A DNA stretch of 20,464 nt from a virus: IMG/VR virus record IMGVR_UViG_3300014325_000055, positions 1 through 20,464 of that record; one strand, written 5' to 3'. The first letter of the stretch is position 1; the number at the start of each line of letters is the position of its first letter. Below, one piece after another: positions 3,379 to 18,556 of the stretch. Both the position numbers and the translations under genes were made by a program. The notes under the pieces are model-generated. The model was not told the DNA's origin and searched no databases. It saw only the letters and a program-made list of their open reading frames with translations.

Positions 3379-3545
3379 GCAAGCCGATTAATCCAAGTGC
3401 GATGACGGGATTGAAGATGGCCTTTCAGGCGGGGTTCAAGTCCGGCCTGCGTGGTGGCCATGCACCGCAACCGCACTACAAGTCCGAGATTCTAAACATG
3501 GCTTATGAAAGAGGCTTTCGGAAAGCAAAGGAAGGGAAGAAATGA
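3375..3545 (+). CDS. Small basic phage protein upstream of the annealing protein
   Basis: A 56-residue protein from the ATG at 3375 inside the ATGA overlap with the upstream stop; a longer frame from 3351 exists but ignores that coupling. The sequence is Gly/Lys-rich with two similar units (AFQAGFKSGLRGGH and AYERGFRKAKEGKK) that look like a repeated A-x3-GF-(K/R)-x-(G/A) helix motif. Such short basic proteins next to recombination genes are common in phages, and their roles are usually unknown. It ends in an ATGA overlap with the candidate single-strand annealing protein gene. Confidence 0.6.
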   Translation: MSKPINPSAMTGLKMAFQAGFKSGLRGGHAPQPHYKSEILNMAYERGFRKAKEGKK

Positions 3546-4504
3546 GCAAAGAACTGGCAACGCGTGAATCCGTCGGTGAAGCTGTCGAGCGAGTCATGAT
3601 CGCAGGCGATCTGGCGAAGCTCAGCGCGGAAGAGCGCGTCGGCTATTACAAATCCGTATGTGAGTCGGTTGGACTCAACCCGCTCACTCGTCCGCTGGAA
3701 TACATTACCCTGAATGGCAAGCTGACGCTGTACGCCCGTAAAGACGCTACAGACCAGCTACGCGCTATTAACCAGGTCAGCATCAATATCGTCAGCCGCG
3801 AGGTTGTCGAAGGCTGCTACGTGGTCACCGCACGCGCCACGATGCCGTCAGGGCGATGTGATGAGAGTATTGGAGCCTGTCCCATCGAAGGATTGAAGGG
3901 CGAGGCACGCTCCAATCAAATGATGAAAGTGGAGACGAAGGCGAAGCGTCGGGTGACGCTGAGTATCTGCGGCATGGGCATGCTCGATGAGAGCGAAGTG
4001 GACTCGATTCCCGGCGCAAGGCTTGGCGAGAATGTGCCAGCCGTCACGACAGCGCCAAAGACATTTGGCAAGCCGAAGACGGATGCTCAAGAGTTTCAGA
4101 ACCTACCGGCGCTGGAGGAATTGGTGGAAAAAGCCAAAGCTGCCGCTGCTCCGCTGCCGGAGTCGAAGGATAGCCAATTCGTTCAGCCGTTGGGCGTGTT
4201 TGCGTCTGGCACGTTAGCAAAAGCGGCGGTTCCTGATGCTGATGAACCAAGCACGGTTCCACAGCAGAATAAGTTCGCAGCTGAATATAGGTTGGCACTT
4301 CCAGAAAAATTTCGACCTCATAGCGATCAGCTTCGTCGCGCCGCTCTCGCTGAAGAGGGATACATCGTTGATGGAGTCGGATCATCGAAGGCAATCTTGC
4401 GGAAGGATTTTCAAAGAGTTGCGAACAAACTTATACGTGCTGCAAAAGAAATGACCGATCCGTTTCTTGGCGATGATTCAGACATCCCGGACAACCTGCG
4501 ATGA
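3542..4504 (+). CDS. Candidate single-strand annealing recombinase (RecT/Bet/Rad52-like role)
   Basis: A 320-residue protein. Its conserved-looking core is residues 25-155: YYKSVCESVGLNPLTRPLEY near 35-54, KLTLYARKDATDQLR at 60-74, then ETKAKRRVTLSICGMGMLDE at 131-150. The early part recalls Bet-type proteins (a 'GLNP.TR' element) and the ETKAKRR helix recalls Rad52/Erf-like proteins. After about residue 165 a Pro/Ala-rich linker leads to a basic C-terminal segment of about 80 residues. The next gene encodes a PD-(D/E)XK exonuclease, so the pair most likely does Red-like end resection and strand annealing. The core matches a family I recall from environmental phages, but no Pfam name can be confirmed. 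The start is an ATGA overlap. Confidence 0.65.
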   Translation: MSKELATRESVGEAVERVMIAGDLAKLSAEERVGYYKSVCESVGLNPLTRPLEYITLNGKLTLYARKDATDQLRAINQVSINIVSREVVEGCYVVTARATMPSGRCDESIGACPIEGLKGEARSNQMMKVETKAKRRVTLSICGMGMLDESEVDSIPGARLGENVPAVTTAPKTFGKPKTDAQEFQNLPALEELVEKAKAAAAPLPESKDSQFVQPLGVFASGTLAKAAVPDADEPSTVPQQNKFAAEYRLALPEKFRPHSDQLRRAALAEEGYIVDGVGSSKAILRKDFQRVANKLIRAAKEMTDPFLGDDSDIPDNLR

Positions 4505-5106
4505 GCACGACTCAGGATCTCTGCCGATACGTTCCTGAAACACATCAGTATTTCAGGGGCAATGTTGAACTTCCTTCAATCACGACCATTTTAAAGGCCG
4601 TCTGGCCGAGAGACGACCAAGCACCCGCTGATAAAATTGAAGGGGCCAGATTGCGCGGTGAGTTCGTGGATAAAGCGTTCACCGAGTTTTTAAAGACTGG
4701 CGAGGTAACTTTACCGGCTGGCACGCGACAAGACTGGTCTGACTGTGTGGGCCAATGCGTCGATTGGTGGCAGGCTGAGAGGGCTGGTGCGAAAGTGGAA
4801 TCGCAAGTAGTCCTCTTCGGAGAGCGCGAGGCCGGTACAGCGGATCTGATCGTGGATGGCTGCGAGATCCTGGAACTGAAATCCACATGGGAGATCAGCT
4901 GCACGGTGCCTGCACAGCTTGGCGGGTATGGGGATTTACGTGAATACTCCGAAGGGTTGCCACATCCCGGAGGGATTAAATGTGGCGTGCTGCACTGCCA
5001 TAAGCGGCTAAAGAAGGCTAGCTTTAAGGCTATCGATTATGTGACCGCATGGGACCAATGGCGCACCGTTCGGAACTTCTATCGGCTCACGAAAGGAATC
5101 AAATGA
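4501..5106 (+). CDS. PD-(D/E)XK phage exonuclease (RecB/lambda-Exo-like)
   Basis: A 201-residue nuclease. Visible motifs are Y-x-PETHQYF near 10-18 followed by LPSITTIL at 24-31 (typical of the N-terminus of this phage group), Glu100 in the E-x-Q element, GTAD at 112-115 with the metal-binding Asp115, ELK at 125-127 (Glu125, Lys127), and QLGGY at 139-143 supplying the Gln/Tyr of the RecB-type motif. All active-site positions are intact and the length is normal. It starts in an ATGA overlap with the annealing protein gene, and such pairs process double-strand ends for recombination and replication of phage DNA. It would act on linear duplex DNA; polarity cannot be read from sequence. Confidence 0.85.
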   Translation: MSTTQDLCRYVPETHQYFRGNVELPSITTILKAVWPRDDQAPADKIEGARLRGEFVDKAFTEFLKTGEVTLPAGTRQDWSDCVGQCVDWWQAERAGAKVESQVVLFGEREAGTADLIVDGCEILELKSTWEISCTVPAQLGGYGDLREYSEGLPHPGGIKCGVLHCHKRLKKASFKAIDYVTAWDQWRTVRNFYRLTKGIK

Positions 5107-6134: not shown

Positions 6135-6374
6135 TTTCCAGTCCAAACGAGACAGCCAATTCATGAAGGCGCTCGCGTTAACGAAGCGGTCTATATGGCG
6201 GCATACGCAGTGTACTGCGCGAACCACGGCCCCCAACCGGCAATGATTGAGGGGCATTGTCGTGGCGGATTCAGTTCGGGAGAACTAATCGCATTTCTCT
6301 ATGCTCGATCATTTCCAAAAGCAGAGTGGCGGCAGCGTGAGAACGAAGCCTTAAACGGAATGAGGCAGCTATGA
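6120..6374 (+). CDS. Hypothetical protein of the microgene train (MSDKT start)
   Basis: An 84-residue protein starting behind GGAAGGTGAGAG and ending in an ATGA overlap at 6371-6374. After the shared MSDKT start it has a helical middle (NEAVYMAAYAVYCANHG near 21-37) and a Gly/Phe segment (GHCRGGFSSGELIAFLYARS near 45-64). The C-terminus is charged. I see a His-Cys pair but no clear metal site, and I do not recognise the family. It is a coupled member of the rightward unit. Confidence 0.65.
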   Translation: MSDKTFPVQTRQPIHEGARVNEAVYMAAYAVYCANHGPQPAMIEGHCRGGFSSGELIAFLYARSFPKAEWRQRENEALNGMRQL

Positions 6375-6385
6375 GCGATAAGACC
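6371..6385 (+). repeat. Start-codon repeat ATGAGCGATAAGACC, copy 2
   Basis: Identical 15 bases to 6120-6134, encoding MSDKT at the start of the 136-residue coiled-coil protein. Together with the 18-base junction repeat it shows that gene boundaries in this train share sequence. Confidence 0.85.
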
Positions 6386-6781
6386 GTGGATGAGATTATG
6401 AAAGATGTTCGTGATCTTGCGATTGCTCGAACAGACAGATTGCAGCAGATCCATGTCCTTGATATTGAAGCCGCCATCACGGCCCTTGCCGCTGAGAGGG
6501 ATTTGGCGGTGAAGGATAGCCTTGCTTTAAAGCAAGTATTAGAAATAGCGCAGAATGATTTTGATGCGTGCGTGCGAAGGAATTTCGGTCTTGCCCGAGA
6601 GCGCGATGCCCTTCAAGCGCGGGTGGTGGAGCTGGAGAAGGCGGTGCTGGATACGTGGCGGGAATTCGGCGACGATTGGCACGGGTGTCATCATTGCAAT
6701 GGCAAGCATGCCGACCTGATGGTTAATTTCCAGCACACGCCCGACTGCATCGTTCGGACAATCGAGGGGAAGACACCATGA
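6371..6781 (+). CDS. Coiled-coil protein with C-terminal zinc-binding motif
   Basis: A 136-residue protein. Residues about 5-95 are long helices with heptad character (IEAAITALAAERDLAVKDSL, then LARERDALQARVVELEKAVL), probably a coiled coil. Residues about 103-126 carry HGCHHC...H-x3-C, a CCHC-type zinc site. This layout, a coiled coil followed by a C-x2-C...H-x3-C element with a HTPDC-like end, occurs in small phage proteins of unknown role. It shares its first 15 coding bases with the upstream gene. It ends in an ATGA overlap with the PEP-CTERM gene, so that gene is translated as part of the phage operon. Confidence 0.7.
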   Translation: MSDKTVDEIMKDVRDLAIARTDRLQQIHVLDIEAAITALAAERDLAVKDSLALKQVLEIAQNDFDACVRRNFGLARERDALQARVVELEKAVLDTWREFGDDWHGCHHCNGKHADLMVNFQHTPDCIVRTIEGKTP

Positions 6782-7290
6782 AGAAAACGCTGCTGCTGAT
6801 CCTGATGCTGCTACCGACTTCGCTGTTTGCGAATTCGATTCAGTACACGTTCACCACGACGAGCGGCGATTGTTGTCGTTTTTCCGGTAGCTTTCTAGGG
6901 TTGAACATACAGGACTATCAACCGCCATACGATTCGGCCCTAGATCAATTACGGGGCGACTTCTGGATGCTACGCGACAACCTATCCAGCAATGTATTGA
7001 ACGGGAGATCCGTGATAGCACTCTCAATCATTGAAAATATCAGTCCGGATTCATTAAATGGCCCGAGTTTCAGCCCGCCGATACCGGGTCATCTAATGGG
7101 GCCAGACATACAAATGATTGTTCAATTCTCGGATGGCACGTTTGACGGTGTGGGGCTTACGTCGCTGGCGATGGCGCAGCCGATCGCGCTGGCATCGATC
7201 ACAAACGTACCTGAGCCGCCGACATGGGTGACGATGGGGCTGGGCTTGCTGATGCTGGCGATATTCGCAAGAAAGATAAGGAAGATATGA
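6778..7290 (+). CDS. Secreted PEP-CTERM domain protein
   Basis: A 170-residue protein. The N-terminus is a clear Sec signal peptide (MKKT, then a Leu-rich core, likely cut after LFA at 18). The C-terminus has VPEPPTW at 144-150, a hydrophobic helix (MGLGLLMLAIFA) and a basic end (RKIRKI). That is the PEP-CTERM sorting signal recognised by exosortases in exopolysaccharide-making Gram-negative bacteria. The middle is beta-rich with a Cys pair (GDCC near 30-33) and no enzyme motif. It is coupled to both neighbours by ATGA overlaps, so it belongs to the phage operon and is not stray host DNA. It probably ends up at the cell surface or in the matrix. Confidence 0.85.
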   Translation: MKKTLLLILMLLPTSLFANSIQYTFTTTSGDCCRFSGSFLGLNIQDYQPPYDSALDQLRGDFWMLRDNLSSNVLNGRSVIALSIIENISPDSLNGPSFSPPIPGHLMGPDIQMIVQFSDGTFDGVGLTSLAMAQPIALASITNVPEPPTWVTMGLGLLMLAIFARKIRKI

Positions 7291-7391
7291 GTTGGTTCAC
7301 GTTGGGCGTAGTCATCGGAGTCTTCATCGGCGCAATAGCCGGATACCTGCTTGCCGCGATTCTGCTGACGTTTAATAAGGAATATGACTAG
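7287..7391 (+). CDS. 34-residue single-helix membrane peptide
   Basis: From ATG 7287 (ATGA overlap with the PEP-CTERM gene) to TAG 7389-7391. Nearly the whole peptide is one membrane helix with small residues (GVVIGVFIGAIAGYLLAAIL), a Gly-rich face like a glycine zipper, then a short charged tail (NKEYD). It could be a small membrane modulator or a partner of the exported protein. It is the last gene of the rightward unit. Its TAG lies within a CTAG that also supplies the stop of the converging gene on the other strand. Confidence 0.55.
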   Translation: MSWFTLGVVIGVFIGAIAGYLLAAILLTFNKEYD

Positions 7392-7588
7392 ATATGGTCC
7401 TGATGGACAAACTTCGTCAAGTCCATCGGAGCGCCGACTTCCGCCTGATGCGCAGCCAGAACCTTCGCGACTAAATCCTCAAGCGCCGCTATCGTCGCAA
7501 CATCTCCCTGCACATGCGTTCCTTGCGCCATGCTCTGCGCAATGTTCGTCGCGATTTGAATGATCCCAATCAATGCTGCGATGTCCAT
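7388..7588 (-). CDS. Small hypothetical protein at the end of the late region
   Basis: A 66-residue protein with Ala/Ile-rich helices (DIAALIGIIQIATNIAQSMA at 2-21, then ALEDLVAKVLAAHQAEVG). It is not hydrophobic enough to be a sure membrane protein. It starts in a TAATG overlap with the lipoprotein gene, with AAAGGAG as ribosome binding site inside that gene. It is the last gene of the leftward late unit, behind the lysis genes, and no function is recognised. Its stop codon shares CTAG (7388-7391) with the opposing gene. Confidence 0.65.
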   Translation of the reverse strand: MDIAALIGIIQIATNIAQSMAQGTHVQGDVATIAALEDLVAKVLAAHQAEVGAPMDLTKFVHQDHI

Positions 7589-7947
7589 TACTTCGCTCCT
7601 TTAAATGCCGCAAGCGATGCGTCGAGCGTGGCCTTTGCTGCATTGAGTTGAGTTAGCTTCGCATCGGCGGGCAAGCCCTTCGTCACCGCATCGTGGTACG
7701 CCTGCAAGGCTGGATAGGCGACGTTGTAGGCATCCACGAGTTTGTTGAATGCGGGCTTCAGCCGATCAGGCAACACGCCGGATGCGAACTGCGCACGCGA
7801 GATGTTGATGATGCTGTTGGCGTCATTGACCAGATCGTAGGTCTTCGACTCCGCGACACTGACAGCGCCAGGATGCACGATGTAGGCACCGCACGATGTT
7901 AAAAGAATCAGCATGACGGCGGCAGCAACGGTTCTATGAAGTCTCAC
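7588..7947 (-). CDS. Small lipoprotein (possible outer-membrane lysis factor)
   Basis: A 119-residue protein starting at GTG 7947, which overlaps the upstream TGA as GTGA. The N-terminus is a lipoprotein signal: basic start, a hydrophobic stretch and the lipobox LTSC with Cys19. The mature part is Ala-rich and helical. Its place at the end of a lysis region next to small membrane proteins suggests an outer-membrane spanin-like role. It is longer than typical o-spanins and not Pro-rich, so that assignment is weak. It would be exported and lipid-anchored in a Gram-negative host. Confidence 0.75.
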   Translation of the reverse strand: MRLHRTVAAAVMLILLTSCGAYIVHPGAVSVAESKTYDLVNDANSIINISRAQFASGVLPDRLKPAFNKLVDAYNVAYPALQAYHDAVTKGLPADAKLTQLNAAKATLDASLAAFKGAK

Positions 7948-8201
7948 TTCTTAACCTCTTCTTTCGGTTTATCGGTGGAGGATGTCACGGTCGTCGTGCC
8001 ATCTGGTTTGGGTTGCTTCAGCGAGTTAATCAAAGTCGTGATGCCGACGATCACCGCGCCGATGGTATTCCGCGCCCATGCGGCGGTCGTATCGTCATGG
8101 ACATGAATGGCAAAGATCAGCACGATGACAGCGGCCAAGATAATCATCGAGAGCAGCAGTTCGGGGAAGTTGGTTTGGACGAAGTCCTTTAGCGATTTCA
8201 T
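7944..8201 (-). CDS. Two-helix membrane protein, holin candidate
   Basis: An 85-residue protein. A hydrophobic helix lies at about 14-33 (ELLLSMIILAAVIVLIFAIH), a second weaker one at about 46-62 (TIGAVIVGITTLINSL), and the tail is charged and Lys/Glu-rich (DKPKEEVKK). Size, two membrane spans and a charged C-terminus fit a class II type holin. It overlaps both neighbours by four bases and lies in the gene group that also holds the lysozyme. At least three neighbouring genes have similar two-span layouts, so which one is the true holin cannot be decided. Confidence 0.65.
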   Translation of the reverse strand: MKSLKDFVQTNFPELLLSMIILAAVIVLIFAIHVHDDTTAAWARNTIGAVIVGITTLINSLKQPKPDGTTTVTSSTDKPKEEVKK

Positions 8202-8461
8202 CTGGTGTCGGTACCTCCTATACCGCCAACCTTCGTGTGATTCTGCCTGACGAAATAAAGTGCAATGATGAGCGTGAAGGCATTACCCAATAGCAATGAT
8301 TCTTTTCCCTGTAACGCACTCCATATGGTTGCCGCTGTCACCATGAGCGCCACAAGGGCCTGCGTGGCTTCCCAGATGAGGTTGACACGCCGCTGTCCGA
8401 GCGTGCGCTTGTCCTGCTCCAGCGTGGTAGTAGACTCAACATTAAGCGGTTCCTCGACCAT
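8198..8461 (-). CDS. Two-helix membrane protein, holin-like
   Basis: An 87-residue protein. A charged N-terminus precedes NLIWEATQALVALMVTAATI (about 27-46) and a second span (LLGNAFTLIIALYFVRQNH, about 57-75), ending in a Gly-rich tail. The pattern N-L-(I/V)-W-E-x-T-Q-A...FxLII-x2-YF-x-R-x-NH is one I recall from small membrane proteins in many phages, usually annotated as hypothetical or holin-like. It ends in an ATGA overlap with the next membrane protein. It lies between the Thivi_2564-like gene and the holin candidate in the lysis region. Confidence 0.65.
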   Translation of the reverse strand: MVEEPLNVESTTTLEQDKRTLGQRRVNLIWEATQALVALMVTAATIWSALQGKESLLLGNAFTLIIALYFVRQNHTKVGGIGGTDTR

Positions 8462-8471
8462 GAATTATCAA

Positions 8472-8657
8472 TTAATGAATTCTAGAATTTGGGAATATCG
8501 GATAGTGCCCAAACGCTCCAACAATTGACAGAATCCAAATTAAGACGAGGACCGCTAACACGACACGAATGATTCTCTTGATTCCTTCATCCATCGGAAA
8601 CAGTGCAAAGCAGACAGCGGCAATGATGAGAACCAGAATCAATGTTCCTAAGTCCAT
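8472..8657 (-). CDS. Thivi_2564-like small membrane protein
   Basis: A 61-residue protein with two membrane helices, LILVLIIAAVCFALF near 6-20 and VVLAVLVLIWILSIVGAFG near 32-50. They are joined by PMDEGIKRIIR. The order helix, P-M-D/E-x2-I-K-x-I, helix ending WILS-x-(V/F)G resembles the Thivi_2564 membrane protein family found in bacteria and phages. Its function is unknown. A near-perfect ribosome binding site (AAGGAGG) precedes the ATG at 8657, so strong translation is expected. It follows the lysozyme gene by ten bases. Confidence 0.7.
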   Translation of the reverse strand: MDLGTLILVLIIAAVCFALFPMDEGIKRIIRVVLAVLVLIWILSIVGAFGHYPIFPNSRIH

Positions 8658-8667
8658 AGAACCTCCT

Positions 8668-9078
8668 TCAACCCCGCTCCATTAATTGTGCAAGCCGGAT
8701 GGCACGCTGTCCCACCTGCGCGGCCCATTTAGAATCGAGCATCTGCCGAGCGGCTTCGCTAAATTTGCTATCCTTGCAGGCCATCAGCATATGCGTAAAC
8801 TGAAGTAAACCGCCAATTCCCATGTTGAACGCCATATTTGCCAGCACCATCTGCCGGTTGTCGCTGAGCAGAATCCACCAGGGAATCTCTTTGTTCAAAT
8901 CCAGCTGAACCTTTTGAATATCGTTGGTGAGCAGAAAGTCCGACTCGACCTTGCTGATACCCACATCGTCGAGATTCCGACCCACTCCGATTGTGATTTT
9001 ACCGACCGAATCCTTATACGGCCTGAGCTTTTCTCCTTCGTCGATACGGAGCAGTATCTTTAATTGAGCAATATCCAT
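8668..9078 (-). CDS. T4-type lysozyme (GH24 endolysin)
   Basis: A 136-residue muramidase. The catalytic triad spacing matches T4 lysozyme exactly: RIDEG with Glu14, YKD with Asp23 and GKITIGVG with Thr29 (9 and 6 residues apart, as Glu11-Asp20-Thr26 in T4). Further along, NRQMVLANMAFNMGIGGLLQ carries the conserved NMAFNxG element. It cleaves the N-acetylmuramic acid-N-acetylglucosamine bond of peptidoglycan at the end of infection. No signal peptide is visible, so it needs a holin for release. It starts in a TAATG overlap with the upstream membrane protein gene. Confidence 0.93.
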   Translation of the reverse strand: MDIAQLKILLRIDEGEKLRPYKDSVGKITIGVGRNLDDVGISKVESDFLLTNDIQKVQLDLNKEIPWWILLSDNRQMVLANMAFNMGIGGLLQFTHMLMACKDSKFSEAARQMLDSKWAAQVGQRAIRLAQLMERG

Positions 9079-9467
9079 TACTGGGGATCGCCTCGGCGGC
9101 GGGAGTAATGGCGCTGATCCTCATGCCCGGTGCCTTCATGGCGCTCGATAAAGCTGCGCACGTCGACCATGAACTGCTTATCATCCTCAACATGAAGATC
9201 GAATTCCTTGCGCGATGGCACATCCTTCAACATGGCGGCGATTGCCGGATTGATACTCAGCTTGGTAATCAGCACATTGATGAGTCCAATGAATCCGCCT
9301 GCCGCCACAAAGAACACCACCCAACTGGTCAGGTTTATAGGTGCTGGAGGCAATTCCACTTGAGCCTGGAATACTAGCGGCATGCCGACCAAGAGTAACG
9401 ATATGACGACACCGATCAACAAATGCATGGTCTCGATCTCGCTTTCATGGGTAAGGGTGTGGCTCAT
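9078..9467 (-). CDS. Two-span membrane protein with soluble tail, upstream of lysozyme
   Basis: A 129-residue protein. Helices are at about 15-33 (HLLIGVVISLLLVGMPLVF) and 49-68 (WVVFFVAAGGFIGLINVLIT). A soluble, charged C-terminal half of about 60 residues follows, rich in Arg/His/Asp. The start at 9467 has GAGGAA upstream; an internal Met14 is an alternative. The layout could fit an inner-membrane lysis regulator, a holin or an inner-membrane spanin-like protein. Position directly before the lysozyme gene, with a one-base overlap, supports a lysis role. No sequence family is recognised. Confidence 0.65.
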   Translation of the reverse strand: MSHTLTHESEIETMHLLIGVVISLLLVGMPLVFQAQVELPPAPINLTSWVVFFVAAGGFIGLINVLITKLSINPAIAAMLKDVPSRKEFDLHVEDDKQFMVDVRSFIERHEGTGHEDQRHYSRRRGDPQ

Positions 9468-9486
9468 GGTTTTATTCCTCGATCAT

Positions 9487-9771
9487 TTAGACCTTTGGAG
9501 ATTCCATATTGGCAGGGACCTGGACTGGAGGCGCAGGCATGGTGGTGCGATCCTTGAAAGTCTTGGAAGTGAGGTCAAACGTATAATCCTTGGCCACATC
9601 AATGGTCAATTTCTCAGCAGACTGGCGAACATATTCCTCCAATGCGGCCAGAGCATCATTGTAAAGCTGCTGTGCGGCTTGAAGCCGTGCCTGCGCAGCT
9701 TGGAAATTGGACAGCACTGGAGTCATGACCGTTTGCTGTCCAGCGGTGAGTATCTTGTCGGGTAGAGCCAT
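9487..9771 (-). CDS. Small coiled-coil protein downstream of the fibre
   Basis: A 94-residue protein starting behind a consensus AAGGAG that overlaps the stop region of the fibre gene. Residues about 20-60 form a long Ala/Gln/Leu-rich helix (AAQARLQAAQQLYNDALAAL) with coiled-coil character. The C-terminus is Pro-rich and probably disordered. Its place between the tail fibre and the lysis genes would fit a small virion protein or fibre-assembly chaperone, but nothing in the sequence proves this. Confidence 0.65.
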   Translation of the reverse strand: MALPDKILTAGQQTVMTPVLSNFQAAQARLQAAQQLYNDALAALEEYVRQSAEKLTIDVAKDYTFDLTSKTFKDRTTMPAPPVQVPANMESPKV

Positions 9772-9782
9772 CGAATCTCCTT

Positions 9783-10424
9783 TTACGCTATGCTGGTGAG
9801 AAGTCCATCTGTAAACGACAGGGTTGTATATAAGTTTGGATTAAAAGCCCCGCTAAATGCACCAAACGTATAGTTCAATAGCGACGGCGTCAGCGTTCCG
9901 CAAGTCAGATTTCCAGCCGCGCTATCATCACCATTTCGAACCGATAGCGTGGTTCCTGATCGCCGCAAACTCACTTCACTAGAAGTCGTGCCTCCCATAT
10001 AAATAACGCTGTCGCCCGTTTGGAGCGTTTTGGCATAAAGGCCAGCGAATCCAGAGGCATCGCCCAGCTGCACCAGTAAGGTCGTGCCGGAACGGCGGAA
10101 GCTGATATCGGTTGCGGCATTACCGCCCATATAAATAAGAGCGGATCCGACCGTCAGCGCCTTGGTGATGCCGACACCGCCCGCCGTGATGATGGAACCG
10201 GTACTCGGTGAGGTGGTATCCGTGGTGAGAGTGGAACTGATACCAGCGGCAAAGGGGATACGGGCGGTCGCCGCAGTCTGTCCATCTTTCGTGATGCAGG
10301 TCGAAAGACCTGTCGCAAGATCCGCTGTCAGCGCATTTGCCCACGTAGAGGAAATGACGGTCGCGGTTACAACTGGATTTCCAGTACTTGTGATCTGGAA
10401 CAATCCCGATCCATTAAAACTCAT
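9783..10424 (-). CDS. Tail fibre / receptor-binding protein with 44-residue repeat
   Basis: A 213-residue protein. Residues 1-60 resemble the N-terminal particle-anchor of podovirus-type fibres: MSFNGSGLFQ at the start, then LATGLSTCITKDGQTAATAR, a segment also seen in many fibre proteins. A linker with GGVGITKALTVG leads to two tandem copies of a 44-residue unit, with IYMGG at 97-101 and 141-145 and RRSGTTL at 110-116 and 154-160. The C-terminal 35 residues are unique and may bind the receptor. The protein is short, so it may form a trimeric fibre with few shaft turns. GGAGA before the ATG is the ribosome binding site, directly beside the inverted HNH gene. Confidence 0.75.
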   Translation of the reverse strand: MSFNGSGLFQITSTGNPVVTATVISSTWANALTADLATGLSTCITKDGQTAATARIPFAAGISSTLTTDTTSPSTGSIITAGGVGITKALTVGSALIYMGGNAATDISFRRSGTTLLVQLGDASGFAGLYAKTLQTGDSVIYMGGTTSSEVSLRRSGTTLSVRNGDDSAAGNLTCGTLTPSLLNYTFGAFSGAFNPNLYTTLSFTDGLLTSIA

Positions 10425-10458
10425 TGCAATGTCTCCAGCTTACAGGCATAGTGAACTC

Positions 10459-11085
10459 ATGAAAAAACATGGACTTTGCACGAGAACAGAAAGACATTCG
10501 CTCTATACAAGATGGGTTCAAATGAAACAGCGCTGCTCTAATCCCAATGATCAAGGCTTTCATCTTTATGGAGGCAGAGGAATTTCCGTTTGTGAACGGT
10601 GGATCAATAGTTTCGCTGCATTTTTGGAAGATATGGGAGAGTGTCCGCCCAGTTTTCAACTTGATCGAATCAATACTGACGGCAATTATGAGCCATCGAA
10701 TTGCAAGTGGTCTTCTCCAACTGAAAACTCTAGAAATCGTCGGGATGCGCGAAAAGTTATAGCAGACGGCGTCGAATATAATGTGAACGTACTCGCAGAA
10801 ATGTCTGGATTGAAAACGGATACTATCATGGCAAGAGCTAAGAGCACTCAGGATCTTCAGCAATTGATTGATCCATCTCGTCATTATCATTTGGTGCCGC
10901 CGCGTCGAGAGCGCCGATCCGGAAAGAAAACGCATTGCAAGCACGGACATCCATACGACGAAGCTAATACTTATTGGAATCCAGACGGGAATCGACAATG
11001 CATTGCATGTAGGCAATATCGCTTGCAGAAGCGAGCTCATTTACAGGCACCTCGCGCATCATCGAGCAAGCAACAGAACACGTAA
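10459..11085 (+). CDS. HNH homing-type endonuclease, inserted on the opposite strand
   Basis: About 208 residues from ATG 10459; ATG 10429 would add ten. The core matches a phage HNH endonuclease family: LYTRWVQMKQRCSNP at 15-29, LYGGRGISVCERW at 36-48, LDRINTDGNYEPSNCKW at 68-84. Then follows a DNA-contact segment (VLAEMSGLKTDTIMARAKS) like the NUMOD-type helix-turn-helix and a second Cys/His site (HCKHGH...CIACRQYR near 162-192). These enzymes cut DNA site-specifically and spread their own genes. The gene is opposite in direction to all its neighbours and sits between the fibre gene and the last internal-protein gene, typical of a free-standing homing gene. The exact start is uncertain because no clear ribosome binding site is seen. 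Confidence 0.85.
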   Translation: MKKHGLCTRTERHSLYTRWVQMKQRCSNPNDQGFHLYGGRGISVCERWINSFAAFLEDMGECPPSFQLDRINTDGNYEPSNCKWSSPTENSRNRRDARKVIADGVEYNVNVLAEMSGLKTDTIMARAKSTQDLQQLIDPSRHYHLVPPRRERRSGKKTHCKHGHPYDEANTYWNPDGNRQCIACRQYRLQKRAHLQAPRASSSKQQNT

Positions 11086-11110
11086 TAGATCACGATAAAA
11101 CATGCGAATG

Positions 11111-12151
11111 TCATGGCAATGGCGCTCCCATCTTTTTAGAGGCTTCATAGAGTCCGGCACCAATCGCAGCACGAGCGGCCCATTTCTTAATCACCGCAGC
11201 TTTTTCCGCAAGATTTGACGCTCTGGCAAATTCGCTCATGGCGGAATCATAAAGATCGCCCATGCCTACGCTTACCGCTGCTGCTCGATTCGAGGTATCC
11301 AGCGCCGTCCCGAACTGTTTGACCTTCGATAGCATGGCCTTATTCGCCATTTGCTTTTCACCAAAAGCCAGATCGCCCGCATTCGAGGCAAACTGTCTCC
11401 CAATGTCGTAATTGATCGGGGCCAGAGGATCGGCGGGATACTTATTGATATAGTCTGAGAAGACTTTGGGAAGCGTCGTACCCGTCGTAGAAAGCTGCTG
11501 CGCTTCCATGGCGATACGTCCCGGCTCTGTGGTATCAATTGGTACGTTCTTGGCCTTTTTAAGTACAGCTTGGAAGTTCGCGCCCGCCCGCGCCTTGCTG
11601 GGAATTTGATTTACCAGACTGCGGGCGATGGGAGAAATCACCTTACCCGCACCCGCAATGGCATTCGGGAGTTCCGCTGCGCCGAGCATCGCACCTGCAC
11701 CTTGAGCCGCCTGCTTCCAGCTTTCATCCGATGGCGCGTTGACAGACTTCGGTGCAAGTAAAGCCGCCAATCCTTGAGCTGAGGTGGTTATCGGCTGAGC
11801 CGCACCTTGCAGCATCTGGCTTCCAGTATCGGCTGCCGCGCCATAGTTGCCAGCCAGTCCATTCCATACCGCGCCGCCAATCGCTTTCGCTGCCGCTGGG
11901 ATTCCAATGACGGCTTGAGGGATTCCTTTCAGCACCTCTGCGGCCTGATCCTGCATGGTCTGAGTGCCTGTGGGTCCAGCACCTGGATACATCACGGGTG
12001 CAACGGATTTTTCCTGAGACTTTGCCAGTCCTTGCGCTAATTCGGGATCGTTTATCGCAATGACTCTCCAAATATCATTGTCATTCAATGATTTGAGCTG
12101 TGGGAAGTGCTCACGGTAGGCGGTAATGGCAGAAGTCCGATAGTCAGGCAT
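11111..12151 (-). CDS. Probable internal virion / DNA ejection protein
   Basis: A 346-residue protein. The N-terminal 50 residues look like a small helical domain (YREHFPQLKSLNDNDIWRVI near 12-31). A long Ala/Gly/Gln-rich region follows (about 70-180) with several hydrophobic stretches such as GIPQAVIGIPAAAKAIGGAV, then a charged helical C-terminal half. Ala-rich proteins with membrane-active stretches directly after the tail-tube genes in podovirus-like phages are usually ejected into the host with the DNA. No family can be named. It starts in a one-base TGATG overlap with the upstream gene. The HNH gene separates it from the fibre gene. Confidence 0.6.
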   Translation of the reverse strand: MPDYRTSAITAYREHFPQLKSLNDNDIWRVIAINDPELAQGLAKSQEKSVAPVMYPGAGPTGTQTMQDQAAEVLKGIPQAVIGIPAAAKAIGGAVWNGLAGNYGAAADTGSQMLQGAAQPITTSAQGLAALLAPKSVNAPSDESWKQAAQGAGAMLGAAELPNAIAGAGKVISPIARSLVNQIPSKARAGANFQAVLKKAKNVPIDTTEPGRIAMEAQQLSTTGTTLPKVFSDYINKYPADPLAPINYDIGRQFASNAGDLAFGEKQMANKAMLSKVKQFGTALDTSNRAAAVSVGMGDLYDSAMSEFARASNLAEKAAVIKKWAARAAIGAGLYEASKKMGAPLP

Positions 12152-13602
12152 CAGGGGCCGAGGATCTTCTTCCGAATATCATCGGGAAGAACCAATCCGC
12201 CTCCTTTCGCTGGCGCATTACCCGCAGGAGCACCGCCCTGCTGAAACTTAGTGAAGTATTTTCCAAGCAACGCCGACTGATCCCGAGTGAAGGCTTCTTC
12301 CACCAATGCAAGATTATCTTTGGCATACTGTGGCGCAAAATTCGCCGACTTCCATCCGGGGATCAATCCCAGTACTCGGCTGACATCCTTATCAGTCACG
12401 ACGCCCCGCTCACCCTTGGCTCTGGCGAACTGCGTACCGATGGCTTGAACGTATTGATCGAGCCTCGCGGAGAGAACAACCTTCTGACTGATATCCTTAG
12501 TCGAATTGATTTCATCGACTAGCTTATGCACTGGCACTAATAGATTCTTGGCGCGTTCGATATCGGTATTGGCTGTACGTATGGCGGTCGGCAGCACCAG
12601 ATCATCCGAAAGCGATTCGGTTAGCGCACCACCGAGTCCACCACGAACTCCGCCCAGCGCGGCGAGTCCATTGGAAATCGTATATTCGCCAGCCGCCACC
12701 TTCGCGGCAACGGCATCGACTCGCTCCTTATCCTTAGGATTCAGATCAGCATAGCCCATACCTTCTCGCGTCGATTGCGCTGTGGGCTTCACGCTTCCCA
12801 CGCGGATGTCATATTTGCCGGTAGCGGGATTAAACTGCATGACGCCTTCCGCAGTATCAACGGTCTGATTCTGAACATTTGGCGCTGGGCGTTCGGGAAT
12901 TGGCGTCGTGCCGGTCTGCTGGAATCCTCCAGTGGTGGAATTAAAGATGCCTTGCGCCTGTCCCGGCCCCCCCTGCTCAAATGAATATCGTGGCTGCGCA
13001 CGATTCGCCGCATTTTCGCCAGCAGTGAATTGCTGTGACTTCGCTTGCTGGCCCGCCGTGAAATCCTGTCCGGCGAGTTGCCGCGCCATTTCGGCAGCCT
13101 GAGTTTTCTCTTCACGGCTACCAGTCAATAGCGATTGCAGTAGTGTCTTTCCTGCATCGCGCATCGTCGGATCCGATGAGGACAACGCCTTTGCCAGTGA
13201 ACTCACGGCGGTATCGCGAGTATCTCGCACGCTCTGTGGTTCCTGAATTGTCGGCGGAGCGGATGGAGCCAGTTCCGGTAGTGGTAAGCCACTGACCGGT
13301 GGCGGCGTGGTATCGCCGGGAGTCTGCGGCACGACCTGATTCGAGAGACTCAAGGCTTGCGCCAGTCGGCTCTGCTGTTCCTGACCCGCCAGCGCTTGCT
13401 GTTCCTGATCCAAACCCGCGTTCTGATACTGACCCAGAAGGCTCTGCGCAATCTTCGAGATTCCTTCCAGTGGTGAGACTCGCGCTCCACGCACTTGCGG
13501 CAGCACTATCGGAGCCATGCTTTCGCGCTGAAGAGCCAGCGCCATCAAGCGGCGGCGGTCAATTCCAGACTGTGCGGCGGCATAAGGATCGAGTGTTGAC
13601 AT
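12151..13602 (-). CDS. Probable internal virion / ejection protein, Gln-rich
   Basis: A 483-residue protein. The N-terminus has a helical segment with Gln/Arg (DRRRLMALALQRESMAP near 15-31). Pro- and Gln-rich low-complexity sequence follows (70-120), then helical repeats with similar units (QDFTAGQQAKSQQFTAGENA near 184-203). A folded, charged C-terminal half contains KDKERVDAVAAKVAAGEYTI and LVEEAFTRDQSALLGKYF. The FTAGxxA repeats recall ejection proteins of podovirus-like phages. It ends beside a Gly/Pro linker. No homology can be proven by eye; the call rests on composition and gene order. Its end overlaps the next gene by one base. Confidence 0.6.
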   Translation of the reverse strand: MSTLDPYAAAQSGIDRRRLMALALQRESMAPIVLPQVRGARVSPLEGISKIAQSLLGQYQNAGLDQEQQALAGQEQQSRLAQALSLSNQVVPQTPGDTTPPPVSGLPLPELAPSAPPTIQEPQSVRDTRDTAVSSLAKALSSSDPTMRDAGKTLLQSLLTGSREEKTQAAEMARQLAGQDFTAGQQAKSQQFTAGENAANRAQPRYSFEQGGPGQAQGIFNSTTGGFQQTGTTPIPERPAPNVQNQTVDTAEGVMQFNPATGKYDIRVGSVKPTAQSTREGMGYADLNPKDKERVDAVAAKVAAGEYTISNGLAALGGVRGGLGGALTESLSDDLVLPTAIRTANTDIERAKNLLVPVHKLVDEINSTKDISQKVVLSARLDQYVQAIGTQFARAKGERGVVTDKDVSRVLGLIPGWKSANFAPQYAKDNLALVEEAFTRDQSALLGKYFTKFQQGGAPAGNAPAKGGGLVLPDDIRKKILGP

Positions 13603-13605
13603 AAA

Positions 13606-14586
13606 TTATCCGAGCAGCGGCTTCACGCTTGAAAATCCTGAGAACTGCCGCAGTGTATTCTTGGCCTGATAGTATTCGTCCTTGCCTTTCTTACTGAAGG
13701 CAACAAGAGCCTGTTCCATTTCGCGATCTCTTGCATCGGCGGCTTCCGCTTGCTGCTCTGGAGGTAGCTGCTGAATCTGCTGCGTGGCCTGAGTAAAGAA
13801 GGCATGCACATTGTTGGGATTGCCGTCTGCGCCGGTCAATTGATTTGCCGCCTGACGATCACCGCCATTGCCAAAGAACTTCTTCGCCAATAAGGCAATC
13901 CCGGCAATAGCGCCACCGACTACCGGAATCGTTGCGGCACCGAGGCCGAAGAGACCCGCACCACCGCCAAGTCCCAGAGCGCCACCAATGCCGCCTCCAC
14001 CTGTTGCCGCTGTTCCCGCTGCCGTGCCTGCGGTTCCTGCCGCACCGCCTGCCGCTTGTCCAATCGCGGGAGCCGCAGCCTTCGCCGCACCAATCCCAAG
14101 CGCCTTGCCGAGAAGCGGAGCGCCAACCGATCCCCCGAGGCTGAACAATCCCTGCATGGTGGAGTTGTGCTGTGCTGCATCAATCGCTCGCTGATCGGCT
14201 TGCTGCTGATAGCCGAGCTGCTGGCCTTGCAATCCAAAGTTGCCTTGATCGAGCGCCTGGCCAAATCCTTGCGCATTGGCCTGAGTGTCGAGATTCAAAC
14301 CCTGCAAGACCGCTTGCGTGCGAGCATCATTTTCTTGCTGGCCTAAGAGGTTGGCGGCATTGTCATATGCCTCACCACCGGGACGCAGACCCTGGTTGAT
14401 CCATTGCGTCTCCTGAGAGGTGCGCTGCTGTTGGAGTTGCGGATTCAGCCGCGACAGTATGGCTTCCTGCCCTGTCGTGCCGGGATTCACCGGCATCGGC
14501 GCGACTCCGCTGAGATTGAGTTTCGGACCAAAGCCAAAAAGCTGCGACTGTCCGGTAGGAGCGAAACTATAAGGTTGTGTCGCCAT
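13606..14586 (-). CDS. Probable internal virion protein, Gly/Gln-rich
   Basis: A 326-residue protein. Residues 40-145 are rich in Gln/Asn/Ala with repeated short motifs (QTQWINQGLRPGG-like, ANLLGQQENDARTQAVLQGL, QGFGQALDQGNFGLQGQQLG). Residues 150-240 are Gly/Ala-rich and hydrophobic (GGAGLFGLGAATIPVVGGAI), as in membrane-inserting ejection proteins. The C-terminus is charged and helical. Similar Gln-rich 'NLLGQQ...' proteins follow the tail-tube genes in many podovirus-like environmental phages. A role in DNA delivery is inferred from this order. It starts immediately after the stop of the upstream gene (TAGATG). Confidence 0.6.
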   Translation of the reverse strand: MATQPYSFAPTGQSQLFGFGPKLNLSGVAPMPVNPGTTGQEAILSRLNPQLQQQRTSQETQWINQGLRPGGEAYDNAANLLGQQENDARTQAVLQGLNLDTQANAQGFGQALDQGNFGLQGQQLGYQQQADQRAIDAAQHNSTMQGLFSLGGSVGAPLLGKALGIGAAKAAAPAIGQAAGGAAGTAGTAAGTAATGGGGIGGALGLGGGAGLFGLGAATIPVVGGAIAGIALLAKKFFGNGGDRQAANQLTGADGNPNNVHAFFTQATQQIQQLPPEQQAEAADARDREMEQALVAFSKKGKDEYYQAKNTLRQFSGFSSVKPLLG

Positions 14587-16134
14587 CTAAAGAGCGCCTC
14601 CTACCTCGAACATTAAATCGGTCGCGGCCCATTGTAATTGAATCCCGTTCGTGGCGGTCTTTATTATTGGTGCAAACGAATACCCGATACCCGTAGCGCC
14701 CTCCCAGTCGGCAATATTGACCAGTCCGGAACCCCATGTCGCGCTATCCCACGTCCCGGTTCCCCAGACTCCAGAACCTCCTCCAGTCCCGCTGGATAAC
14801 TCCGCTGATGTATCGGACAGGTCGTAATCGACGTTCACGTTTCCATAAATGGCGGGTACTCCGTCGCTCTGGAAATGAAATCGAATCATCTTGCACTGCT
14901 TCTGCAATGCCGTTCCGTAAGTCTGGAACGATTGGATGGCAAAGCCGGGGATGCTGGCTCCGTTATCGGTGGTGCCATCCCACGCCTTGTTGACGACGCC
15001 ATTACCTCCGAAGTACGGCGCATTGTTCAATAGCTCCCAGCAGTTCGCCTCCCAGCGCGTGAATTTGCACCATGCGCCCGTAATGTTGTTCTGCACATAC
15101 TGCTGCTGACTCGCACCCGCCGTCACCGGTACGTTCAAATACAACTGATTCTCTTTCGGGAACATCAGCAATTCCCAACCGAAATTAGCTCCGTATGACG
15201 TAGTGGCATTATTCATCGCCAACTGGATCTGATCGGTAATCGTGGCTCCCGGACTTCCACCCACAGCGGGCAGCCGCTTCGCCAAGGCGATGACGCCTTC
15301 ATTAGTGATAATCAACAGATCACCACCGTATTTGATCCAGCAGCGTCGGCCAATGGGAGCGCCAATCCGCCAGATGCCAATCAGAGAGATGCCGCTGATC
15401 GATGTGGGATCCGTCAGTTGCCAGACCAGCACTTCGCCCATGGAAGTGATGAAGGCCAAATGGTCGTCCATGCCCTGACCGCCATCGAGCGTCCATGTCA
15501 TTGCCGCAACCAGATATCCGCCCAACTGGCAGAGGCTCGACATATCCAAGGCCGTTGCCGCGCCGGCGACCGCATTGATCTGGAGATACCACGCCTTGAG
15601 CGTCCCAGTCTGCGTCAGCCAAATACGATTCTTGAATACGGTAATATTGGTGGCTGTGGCGGTATCGACTCCGGTGATATCGTGCGTTCCATCACCGTCC
15701 GCATGCCATGCACTGCCGTTCCAGGATCGCAGCTTATCTGCGCCATTGACCATCAGGAGGTAAATCGCACCACCCGCTGTGGTGAAGTTCACATGCTCGA
15801 ATCGCGCATTCGTCAGGGATGTCACGACCGCTGCACCTACCGCACCCGCTGAGGTGACGTTATAGATGGACGTTCCGGCAGCCCCGAACATGGTCGATGT
15901 CGCCCCGCCGTTGTACGTCATCAGCGATTCGACTTGCCCGGTAATTCCGGTCACATGCGCGGAATAGCCTTTGCGGATATTGACAGTATTGGTGGCAGGC
16001 CAGAAGTTTTCCAGCGTGACGGCATTTAGTGGATCCATATCCCCAAATGCGTTTTTTGCATCCCAGCCTCGCACGGGAGCAGCCACCGTGATGGTTCGAG
16101 ACTGCTGGCCAGTGCGTCGGGTTAGAACTGCCAT
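14587..16134 (-). CDS. Podovirus-type tail tube / packaged-DNA stabilisation protein (gp10/gp12-like)
   Basis: A 515-residue protein from ATG 16134; a GTG at 16155 gives seven more residues but no better site. The N-terminal part reads PVRGWDAKNAFGDMDPLNAV followed by LENFWPATNTVNIRKGY. That is the typical start of the T7 gp12/P22 gp10-type beta-propeller tail proteins ('GW...M.P.DA..L.N..P....V..R.GY'). Later segments with NGSAWH, TVFKNRIWLT and GLKAW-like blades fit a propeller. The C-terminal 120 residues hold beta-sandwich-like sequence with a Trp/Gly-rich piece (SGVWGTGTWDSATWGSG). It closes the tail channel in the virion. It overlaps the adaptor gene by 13 bases. Confidence 0.8.
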   Translation of the reverse strand: MAVLTRRTGQQSRTITVAAPVRGWDAKNAFGDMDPLNAVTLENFWPATNTVNIRKGYSAHVTGITGQVESLMTYNGGATSTMFGAAGTSIYNVTSAGAVGAAVVTSLTNARFEHVNFTTAGGAIYLLMVNGADKLRSWNGSAWHADGDGTHDITGVDTATATNITVFKNRIWLTQTGTLKAWYLQINAVAGAATALDMSSLCQLGGYLVAAMTWTLDGGQGMDDHLAFITSMGEVLVWQLTDPTSISGISLIGIWRIGAPIGRRCWIKYGGDLLIITNEGVIALAKRLPAVGGSPGATITDQIQLAMNNATTSYGANFGWELLMFPKENQLYLNVPVTAGASQQQYVQNNITGAWCKFTRWEANCWELLNNAPYFGGNGVVNKAWDGTTDNGASIPGFAIQSFQTYGTALQKQCKMIRFHFQSDGVPAIYGNVNVDYDLSDTSAELSSGTGGGSGVWGTGTWDSATWGSGLVNIADWEGATGIGYSFAPIIKTATNGIQLQWAATDLMFEVGGAL

Positions 16135-17048
16135 GATCCATCCGGCACAGACCACGGCCCGATCAGCATCGGCAAGTCCACCGGAGTGAGGGACTGCATC
16201 GATACCGGCTGGTCTTGAGCCTTCGCCATGGCCTTCAAATCCTCAAACTTCTTCTGCTCGACTCCGCATTCCAGTTTCTTGGCATTGAGGAAGTAGTACT
16301 TCAGGCCCGCACGCATGAGCGCATCGGGGAAGATGCAGGTATCGCTGTCTACCGTGAAGGATTCTTTCGTGGCAGTTGTTCCAGCCGCTGCGATAACCCA
16401 GTAGTTCGAGACGTATTCGAAAGCTTCGTTATATGCTGCGGTAGGCGCGGGAAAGAATCGCAGCTTGTTATCAACGACACGAAACCGCTCCCGAGGCCCA
16501 GTCGAGATGACGCCTCCCTGAAGCGTCTGCCATTCCTGAGAGCTTTTGGGTCCAAGATTCCTCCAGTGATTCGTTCGGTCCCAGTTCGTATCCGAGATCA
16601 TCCGGTTATAATCGGCAGGCAGTGCGTAATCCTGCACTGCAAAGGTAAGCGTGCTGGTAACGGGCACACTGCCTGTCCCTGATGTGGCGGGAACATTCAT
16701 AACAAACTCATTCCCACTGCTGATGGATACGATCTCGGCATAGGGAGCAATGCCTGAGCCGCTAATCACCATTCCCGGAGTGAGTCCTCCGGTCGAAACA
16801 GCACCATTTACCAATGTGCTTCCATACAGGGTGCAACCGGGAAAGACTTGCGCTGCGGTCGTCTGGAAGATATAGGCACGTACCGAACGCTGCCATTCGA
16901 ACTCGCGGTTCAGGTCTTCCCCCAGCGATTGAGTCAGCGCCAGCAGCTGCATGGTCTGATTCAAGCCAGAACCAATGACAATACTGGGCTGGGCTAAGCC
17001 CAACTCACCAGAGACGCGATCCACGAGTTGTAATAGCGTTATCGCCAT
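16122..17048 (-). CDS. Tail tubular protein A-like adaptor
   Basis: A 308-residue protein. The N-terminus (ITLLQLVDRVSGELGLAQPS at 3-22, then ALTQSLGEDLNREFEWQ) is the helical adaptor pattern seen in podovirus proteins that join portal and tail tube. The middle holds DYALPADYNRMISDTNWDRT and FRVVDNKLRFFPAP, both familiar from this family. Residues about 85-135 form an inserted beta-rich loop (GLTPGMVISGSGIAPYAEIV) that many environmental members carry. It lies directly upstream of the tail tube gene in transcription order, as expected. It likely forms a 12-fold ring under the portal; this is family knowledge. Confidence 0.75.
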   Translation of the reverse strand: MAITLLQLVDRVSGELGLAQPSIVIGSGLNQTMQLLALTQSLGEDLNREFEWQRSVRAYIFQTTAAQVFPGCTLYGSTLVNGAVSTGGLTPGMVISGSGIAPYAEIVSISSGNEFVMNVPATSGTGSVPVTSTLTFAVQDYALPADYNRMISDTNWDRTNHWRNLGPKSSQEWQTLQGGVISTGPRERFRVVDNKLRFFPAPTAAYNEAFEYVSNYWVIAAAGTTATKESFTVDSDTCIFPDALMRAGLKYYFLNAKKLECGVEQKKFEDLKAMAKAQDQPVSMQSLTPVDLPMLIGPWSVPDGSWQF

Positions 17049-17603
17049 TTATACCTTCTTCTTGAGCAATGCCTTCATCTCATCGAGTTCCTTGCGCATC
17101 GCCGATACCTCTGCATTGGCTTCTTCCCGAATGCGGGCCACCAGCTCGGCATCCTTACCCGACTCGATAAAACTCTTGGCTTTCGCCCGGAGGTCGTTGA
17201 ATCCCATGATTTTCTGAGCGTAAGAATCCGGCAAATTGGCAAATTGTTCAATGGTAAAGATGCTCAAGGCGCGGAATTCTGCCTTCTGGGTATCGCTGAC
17301 CGCGTGCCACATCTCAATGGGCATCCCGATTACCTTGGTTTCCCGAGTCTTCTGCCAGCGTTCCCACTCCAATGGATACTCTTCGATGTCAGCTTCCGTC
17401 ACCGGGCGGTCAATCCGCAGGTGCTGATCTGCCGGGATCTTGATAATATGCACGATCGGTTCATATACCGGTCGATTCTCTTTCTTGGACCGGAAGTTAT
17501 TCTTCCTTTGTATCTCGTGGAACATAACGGCCAGCTTACCCTGTACGGGCGCAATGCTGTCGCTGGAATTGGACCAACCGGCTTCTTTGAATTCTCTGCT
17601 CAT
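17049..17603 (-). CDS. Conserved-looking phage protein of the structural block
   Basis: A 184-residue protein. It contains a beta-like segment with RPVYEPIVHIIKIPADQH near 44-61 and a VTEADIEEYPLEWERW element near 69-84. A helix-hairpin-helix-like stretch then reads FRALSIFTIEQFANLPDSYA and FNDLRAKAKSFIE, near residues 110-146. The C-terminus is a coiled coil (EVSAMRKELDEMKALLKKK). The HhH-like region with 'TIEQFANL' resembles a common small structural-block protein in podovirus-like phages whose role is unknown. It starts in an ATGA overlap with the MptE-like gene and ends next to the adaptor gene. Confidence 0.65.
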   Translation of the reverse strand: MSREFKEAGWSNSSDSIAPVQGKLAVMFHEIQRKNNFRSKKENRPVYEPIVHIIKIPADQHLRIDRPVTEADIEEYPLEWERWQKTRETKVIGMPIEMWHAVSDTQKAEFRALSIFTIEQFANLPDSYAQKIMGFNDLRAKAKSFIESGKDAELVARIREEANAEVSAMRKELDEMKALLKKKV

Positions 17604-18367
17604 ACTTTCCTCTTTCGTTGAATGCTCGCGGCCACTGTTTGCATCAGGCCGGAGCCATGAAATTCGATATCAATTGGGGTGGTTTCCAAGAACTCTGCCA
17701 TCTCGCGGGCGGCTTGCCATAAGTGCGGTGTCGTCTTGAAGGTCTTTCCGGCAAGTTCGACATGGATGATTGGCTCATTGTTTCCAGGATGAGGGCCAGA
17801 CCAATGCTGATAACCAAATGAGCAGTCCATGCCGAAGACCCGAAACTTGCGATAGCCCAAGGCATTGGCGACGTTGATGGCCCGCTGACCGACGGTGGAT
17901 CCCCCGCCGATCATGGATTTCAGCCCGCGACTGTGGTTCATACGTACCCATTCGACGGTCTCTTCTCCATTGATCATGTGCCAGAGTTCGACGTTCTTGC
18001 CTTTAAGCACTTCCCAGAAACCTTCCGGGCAGACCGATGCCATGAGATAGCGCGTATGGGCGTTGGCCGCTTGCAGCATCTCCAGCTCGTAGGGTCGCGG
18101 GTCCAGATGCACATGAAAGCTGGGGGTCAGTCCGCGCTCCATCAGGAAGTCATGTGCTCCCGAGACAGTCATCATGGGCAGGTAATCGGTGCGGTTGATA
18201 TCCTGCCATGTTTCCAGCAAGGACGGCCCGTAACAGATGATGGAGATTGCGCCCAGATCGGTCGATGGCGGCAGCTTGCGGAGAAATGGAAATCCGGACT
18301 TGCATGCAATGGCCATCTGCGCATGTCTGTCCGCAGTCGGCATGATGGCAGGTATGGCGATGCTCAT
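17600..18367 (-). CDS. MptE/DUF115-like protein (6-hydroxymethylpterin-kinase-like fold)
   Basis: A 255-residue protein. The core has ICYGPSLLETW near 44-54, a GPS-L nucleotide-binding-type loop, then VSGAHDFLMERGLTPSFHVH at 68-87 followed by LDPRP. A later block reads GGGSTVGQRAINVANALGYR and FGMDCSF. This order (GxSL, GAH/N..L...G..PxxxxxxDP, GGG/SV...A...G) is that of the DUF115/MptE-like family (Pfam PF01973). Its members are annotated as pterin pyrophosphokinases or as enzymes of flagellin or surface glycosylation. In phages the role is unclear. It neighbours two glycosyltransferases and a methyltransferase, so surface-sugar or nucleotide-sugar chemistry is the best guess. Confidence 0.8.
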   Translation of the reverse strand: MSIAIPAIMPTADRHAQMAIACKSGFPFLRKLPPSTDLGAISIICYGPSLLETWQDINRTDYLPMMTVSGAHDFLMERGLTPSFHVHLDPRPYELEMLQAANAHTRYLMASVCPEGFWEVLKGKNVELWHMINGEETVEWVRMNHSRGLKSMIGGGSTVGQRAINVANALGYRKFRVFGMDCSFGYQHWSGPHPGNNEPIIHVELAGKTFKTTPHLWQAAREMAEFLETTPIDIEFHGSGLMQTVAASIQRKRKV

Positions 18368-18549: not shown

Positions 18550-18556
18550 ATTGTGA

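Follow-up and report, generated by a model that had tools for sequence, protein, structure and literature searches.

A phage operon gene for an apparently exported protein with a PEP-CTERM-type tail, most plausibly a member of a recurrent class of putative host-exosortase substrates

The closest described counterpart of the protein reported here is the PEP-CTERM/EpsH (exosortase) system (TIGR02595, PF07589) of Haft et al. 2006 (PMC1569441). According to that paper, PEP-CTERM bodies are low in basic residues and Cys and rich in Thr, Ser, and Asn, and homology between the proteins is as a rule confined to the tail; the words "phage" and "viral" are absent from its main text. The LPXTG/sortase substrates of Gram-positive bacteria are alike in that a C-terminal motif, helix, and basic end are read by a host membrane transpeptidase, but motif, enzyme family, and envelope type differ from those of PEP-CTERM (PMC1569441). 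PEP-CTERM proteins and exosortases have been implicated in holding exopolysaccharide at the cell surface and in floc or biofilm formation (PMC9850573 and PMC12188702). A title and abstract-opening search of open-licence PMC, with subscription papers and bioRxiv outside its scope, yielded no paper on phage-encoded PEP-CTERM proteins among the matches listed; a Microcystis paper (PMC12642866) mentions PEP-CTERM, in the portion retrieved, for Microcystis genes only.

The protein that we describe shares with the PEP-CTERM/EpsH system, as set out in PMC1569441, a signal-peptide-like start, Pro-Glu-Pro, a helix, and a basic end, together with an orphan body of low basic content and raised Ser and Asn. 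It differs in its phage origin, in the company of recombination-type genes in its operon, in the lack of an exosortase in the contig, in scoring at the model threshold, and in its atypical Thr and Cys. It has its tail in common with PepA of Aquincola tertiaricarbonis (NF033554; PMC9850573), to which the match is weak (17.3 bits, E=0.003) and confined to residues 109-166 towards the C-terminus; PepA shares part of its body with family A, one of the recurrent families described below.

The stretch of DNA that we analysed, here called the window, is a virus record of 20,464 bases and, judged from its sequence, is a fragment of a short-tailed phage (Table 1). A run of plus-strand ORFs extends from about 3130 to 7391, and its gene content, strand, and layout make it a probable early operon. 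The 170-aa ORF lies near the end of this run, with a GAGGGGAAG stretch a few bases 5' of its ATG. An earlier note on this DNA had described this ORF as coupled by ATGA on both sides and encoded inside a phage operon; its coordinates, frame, length, and coupling are as described, and the ORF layout together with HMM and PHROG matches places it beside recombination-type genes. The 320-aa protein of the operon, which we presume to be a single-strand-annealing recombinase, a probable name not given by its family match, has relatives at 50 to 64% in three viral contigs (L002-L004). The converging minus-strand genes include an endolysin (phrog_7, 6e-20; Phage_lysozyme PF00959), a 522-aa tail or "stabilization" protein (phrog_5107, 4e-113), a tail protein (phrog_6013), and a virion protein (phrog_6121). 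EBPR podovirus 2 and phages of Bradyrhizobium and Sulfitobacter are among those with relatives of the 522-aa protein. No homologues were found for the neighbouring 136-aa protein (in viral_contigs) or the 201-aa protein, and the sequence parts examined of the structural relatives (L005-L014) and the recombinase relatives (L002-L004) showed no PEP-CTERM tail gene, a point against the reading favoured below.

Table 1. Features of the window around the PEP-CTERM-tailed ORF
Feature	Coordinates	Strand	Length	Basis
PEP-CTERM-tailed, apparently exported protein (CDS)	6778..7290	+	170 aa	ORF and coupling, TIGR02595, NF038129, PF07589
ATGA overlap of the 170-aa ORF with the upstream ORF (6371-6781)	6778..6781	+		sequence
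ATGA overlap of the 170-aa ORF with the downstream ORF (7287-7391)	7287..7290	+		sequence
Signal-peptide-like N-terminus, residues 1-18 (MKKTLLLILMLLPTSLFA)	6778..6831	+		by eye; hydrophobicity peak at residues 4-22
PEP-CTERM tail (VPEP, then a hydrophobic helix and a basic end; residues 144-170)	7207..7287	+		HMM matches at residues 144-168, hydrophobicity peak
ORF coupled upstream	6371..6781	+	136 aa	phrog_38725, E=0.004; no relatives in viral_contigs
Single-TM glycine-rich peptide (glycine-zipper), coupled downstream, last operon gene	7287..7391	+	34 aa	sequence; no significant family hit
Putative single-strand-annealing recombinase	3542..4504	+	320 aa	phrog_14463 (unknown function), E=3e-4
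Exonuclease-like protein	4501..5106	+		phrog_298 exonuclease, E=1.8e-4; PF13366 PDDEXK_3 weak, E=0.18
Late genes (virion, lysis, accessory), converging on the early operon	7388..20464	-		phrog_7, phrog_5107, phrog_6013, phrog_6121, PF00959

Three other features of the late region were recorded. A lipoprotein-like ORF (LLTSC) at 7588-8461 (minus strand) adjoins two small membrane ORFs near the endolysin, probably forming a lysis cassette that converges tail to tail with the early operon. Antisense to the late operon, a plus-strand ORF at 10162-11085 has an internal part (LYTRWVQMKQRCSNP...YGGRGISVCERW) that looks homing-endonuclease-like by eye and gave no Pfam hit. At 17600-20464 (minus strand), genes for an MptE-like protein (PF01973, 8.9e-15), a methyltransferase, and a glycosyltransferase-like protein adjoin the tail genes and are about 50 to 57% conserved in relatives such as L006, L009, and L012.

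The window protein begins with MKK, followed by a hydrophobic core and SLFA/NS, and carries no lipobox Cys. These n-, h-, and c-regions, recognised by eye and from the Kyte-Doolittle hydrophobicity peak, look like a signal peptide, in line with the earlier note. In 19-residue windows, hydrophobicity peaks begin at residues 3-6 and at 149; in between, where a PEP-CTERM protein is expected to have no further transmembrane segment, a weaker peak begins at 124 (1.31). An identity as a u-spanin was rejected, since the protein has no lipobox Cys. At the other end (tail letters TNVPEPPTWVTMGLGLLMLAIFARKIRKI), Pro-Glu-Pro is followed by a hydrophobic helix and then by a basic cluster at the extreme C-terminus (VPEPPTWVTMGLGLLMLAIFARKIRKI, residues 144-170 of 170). 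NCBIfam TIGR02595 scored 16.0 bits against a cut-off of 16, and Pfam PF07589 scored 20.2 bits, slightly below its cut-off of 20.7; the best NCBIfam PEP-CTERM model, NF038129 (E=1.6e-6), covered residues 128-166 only. A genome-wide PF07589 profile search misses the window protein itself and was not counted as negative evidence. The exported-type ORF with a PEP-CTERM-type tail in a phage operon holds as a sequence observation, with the HMM score at threshold level. The earlier note had named the absence of any PEP-CTERM HMM hit as a refutation; the models do hit, at threshold.

Such threshold scores would also suit an ordinary inner-membrane protein, in which a signal peptide or anchor and a C-terminal helix stand next to a coincidental VPEP. 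A protein of this kind would act in the periplasm or inner membrane, for example by blocking DNA entry together with the adjacent 34-aa TM peptide, and the coupling of the gene to this second small membrane protein speaks for it. Against it, the full tail pattern is rare by chance. When the last 40 residues were shuffled 200,000 times, 46 of the products passed the rule of VPEP plus hydrophobic plus basic segments, and the window ORF was the only one to pass it among 10,463 stop-to-stop ORFs of at least 40 aa (window and L002-L053). We consider the tail very probably a genuine PEP-CTERM tail and the inner-membrane alternative rather unlikely.

The body of the window protein contains 3.2% Lys plus Arg, versus 10.7% in the other window proteins, as well as 12.8% Ser and 6.4% Asn, versus 5.9% and 3.9%. 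Thr (5.6%, not raised) and Cys (1.6%, not low) are off the PEP-CTERM pattern. No homologue was found in viral_contigs (91 pattern stretches with no relative among them), in the phages collection (50,697 GenBank phage records, tblastn), in plasmids (three matches, best E=0.8), or in genome_contigs (20 stretches with no relative among them). Because none of the collections searched held a relative, evidence of conservation is absent for this body, which the inner-membrane alternative would accommodate. We counted the orphan body in favour of the PEP-CTERM reading, since orphan bodies are typical of the class (PMC1569441). A single-sequence AlphaFold2 model had a mean pLDDT of 44.7 with a few short strands and was unusable for the body; within this otherwise poor model, the tail helix (residues 149-169) reached a pLDDT of 75-79. 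The earlier note had listed a signal peptide, a beta-rich middle, and a VPEPPTW tail; a signal-peptide-like start and the tail were borne out, and the poor model did not establish the beta-rich middle.

We scanned IMG/VR for DNA encoding VPEPxTWA (at least 120 stretches), VPEPPTW (14), and VPEPxT[L/F]A..G (65), and retained ORFs in which the tail stood at the C-terminus; some of the loci are near-duplicates of one another. The scans returned at least 150 PEP-CTERM-like proteins in at least 138 loci, window excluded. Under a stricter stop-to-stop rule, 135 of 199 loci passed versus 2 of 199 reversed sequences, a control that tests the C-terminal setting only because the scan patterns select for VPEP. 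All 18 distinct proteins submitted to NCBIfam passed TIGR02595. The exact VPEPPTW variant was rejected as a recurring class, as only 1 of its 14 loci had a strict tail. This recurrence of the tail in other phage contigs, with clear HMM scores, argues against the inner-membrane alternative, and it is a stronger result than the window gene alone. Tblastn against the 50,697 GenBank phage records found nothing for the window protein, for members of families A, B, and C, or for the L120 protein; with the L147 protein and with the window tail, no match was better than E=4.

Annotated neighbours of the PEP-CTERM genes included terminase, portal, major head, scaffold, helicase, tail-fibre, methyltransferase, and holin genes. 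A homologue of one of eight annotated hallmark proteins was present in 37 of 138 loci, within two genes in 11, and in nine loci annotated phage genes (helicase included) flank the PEP-CTERM gene on both sides. The large terminase (phrog_2) was found in 17 of the 50 PEP-CTERM-bearing records tested. The matches of 149 neighbouring proteins scanned from 60 loci fell into 109 PHROG families (E<=1e-5), portal, terminase, head, and polymerase among them; each of the best 25 of these 109 families was found in at most three neighbouring proteins. Some of the remaining loci could be host DNA at prophage edges. Locus L231 resembles the window in its two-sided ATGA overlaps: its 105-aa PEP-CTERM protein (TIGR02595, 25.1 bits) has no clear signal peptide, and the gene adjoins a primase/helicase-like ORF, with terminase- and portal-like ORFs on the same contig (all names by eye). 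Two or three PEP-CTERM genes stand in tandem in several viral contigs (L147:808-1815, L189:7437-8971, L196:3390-5353, and L210:2988-4337). In two further records (L245:6279-7653 and L250), the PEP-CTERM gene lies directly downstream of a holin gene (phrog_3427, 2e-34); to judge from the record numbers, these records appear to derive from an isolate genome.

Clustering of the proteins collected gave 69 clusters, in which the window protein was a singleton. Three body families recurred, A (at least 28 proteins), B (at least 24), and C (at least 16), with conserved bodies in proteins of about 210 to 240 aa. Homology of the window protein body to these families was rejected: the tail alone matches, and the best body hit had an E of about 0.07-0.1. 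Family A partially matches the flocculation protein PepA (E=1e-11, L240). The predicted structure of family B (23 sequences, pLDDT 86.5) is a beta-sandwich followed directly by the tail helix. The best structural matches comprised a Bdellovibrio protein with a Z of 9.3, a surface glycan-binding protein of Bacteroides (8.8), CBM61 and a glucosyltransferase domain (both 8.2), and a K2-2 tailspike (8.1). Family B is thus predicted to be a jelly roll close to carbohydrate-binding modules; carbohydrate binding is only a lead, since a Z near 8 can reflect the common fold alone. We count the PepA resemblance of family A and the predicted fold of family B in favour of the exosortase-substrate reading given below. 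Bacterial searches for families A and B gave matches in 70 of 349 genomes in the order of Herminiimonas, mostly in the tail, and none of the matches listed reached the first 69 model positions; among 385 genomes in the class of a Rhizobiales MAG, a search without a positive control, none matched at E<=1e-12.

The known comparison classes on the phage side are moron or lysogenic-conversion genes and superinfection-exclusion envelope proteins. A moron is an extra gene with its own transcription unit, inserted between genes that adjoin in relatives; the window gene, on the operon strand and coupled on both sides, does not fit this description. Moron-like placement was seen only in four family B loci (L088, L110, L125, and L173), in which the PEP-CTERM gene, often on the opposite strand, interrupts the terminase-portal pair. 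In L088 and L110 it runs opposite to both terminase and portal; in L125 it is opposed to the terminase alone, and in L173 all three genes share one strand. The terminase and portal genes overlap in Ochrobactrum phage OH, which has a terminase with 53% identity to the L088 protein. This family B arrangement is characteristic of inserted cargo.

No exosortase (PF09721) was found in the 20,464-base window contig or in any of the 50 other PEP-CTERM-bearing virus records tested, which are fragments; any processing would therefore depend on the host. Relatives of the 522-aa tail protein (28 to 46% identity) were present in 20 proteobacterial genomes, mostly MAGs, of which one, from a Lake Baikal gammaproteobacterium, had a detectable exosortase. 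This scarcity counts against the exosortase reading, although the relatives are distant, and speaks for the inner-membrane alternative. Naming a host through these relatives was rejected, since even the best (46%, in a Sulfuricaulis MAG) is too remote. The earlier proposal that the phage protein uses host sorting is supported in part: the PEP-CTERM-type tail, the phage operon, and the lack of an exosortase in the contig and the 50 records all speak in its favour; the single exosortase-bearing genome in 20 does not name the host.

On balance, we favour the reading that the window gene encodes a phage-borne PEP-CTERM protein, a substrate of the host exosortase that changes the envelope of the infected cell. 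After infection, the ORF would be co-translated with early phage genes and its product would cross the inner membrane by Sec. The C-terminal helix would hold the protein in the inner membrane with VPEP at the periplasmic face, and the host exosortase, to which we assign this step because none was found in the phage contig, would then process it. The product would reach the outer surface or the exopolysaccharide layer and alter the envelope, and the most likely benefit would be that competing phages are kept out or that host aggregation is changed. Given a genuine PEP-CTERM tail, dependence on exosortase is quite probable. A surface change as the function of the window protein we regard as evenly balanced; we infer superinfection exclusion or matrix change, of which superinfection exclusion specifically is doubtful. 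To our knowledge, the known superinfection-exclusion proteins are not exosortase substrates.

For a surface role, exclusion of other phages and a change in matrix or aggregation come first among the candidates; an exosortase decoy is possible. The phage tail would then occupy or stall the host exosortase, so that less host matrix protein is displayed, flocs or biofilm loosen, and progeny escape. The early-type genes of the operon, the shortness of some phage PEP-CTERM proteins (75 to 111 aa; L147, L149, and L231), and the lack of exosortase in the 50 records fit this idea. The conserved bodies of families A to C and the confidently predicted domain of family B would be needless for a decoy, which makes it improbable. 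A recently captured host PEP-CTERM gene, carried as transient cargo with no phage function, would explain the lack of relatives in related phages and accords with PEP-CTERM proteins being among the fastest-evolving in their genomes (PMC1569441), but it has equally little chance in our view, as tight two-sided ATGA coupling is expected of an integrated operon member and no bacterial relative was found in genome_contigs.

Together, these sequence comparisons suggest that some phages borrow a host sorting enzyme to display proteins of their own on the infected cell, and the window gene is best read as belonging to a recurrent group of PEP-CTERM proteins, encoded by phages, that would depend on host exosortase. 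A broader generalisation, which we advance tentatively and hold at slightly short of even, is that phages of exosortase-bearing proteobacteria commonly encode PEP-CTERM proteins, with several unrelated body families at several genome positions, and take over surface sorting in infection or lysogeny to re-dress the surface or the polysaccharide matrix. If this reading is true, these proteins would form a class of phage effector in uncultivated phages, of which the GenBank phage records searched showed no example. Families A, B, and C offer a small set of genes for testing. Should phages bring exosortase substrates of their own, infection could alter floc and biofilm structure and phage competition in such habitats, and the tail would be a clue to the hosts of uncultivated phages, because the host must carry an exosortase.
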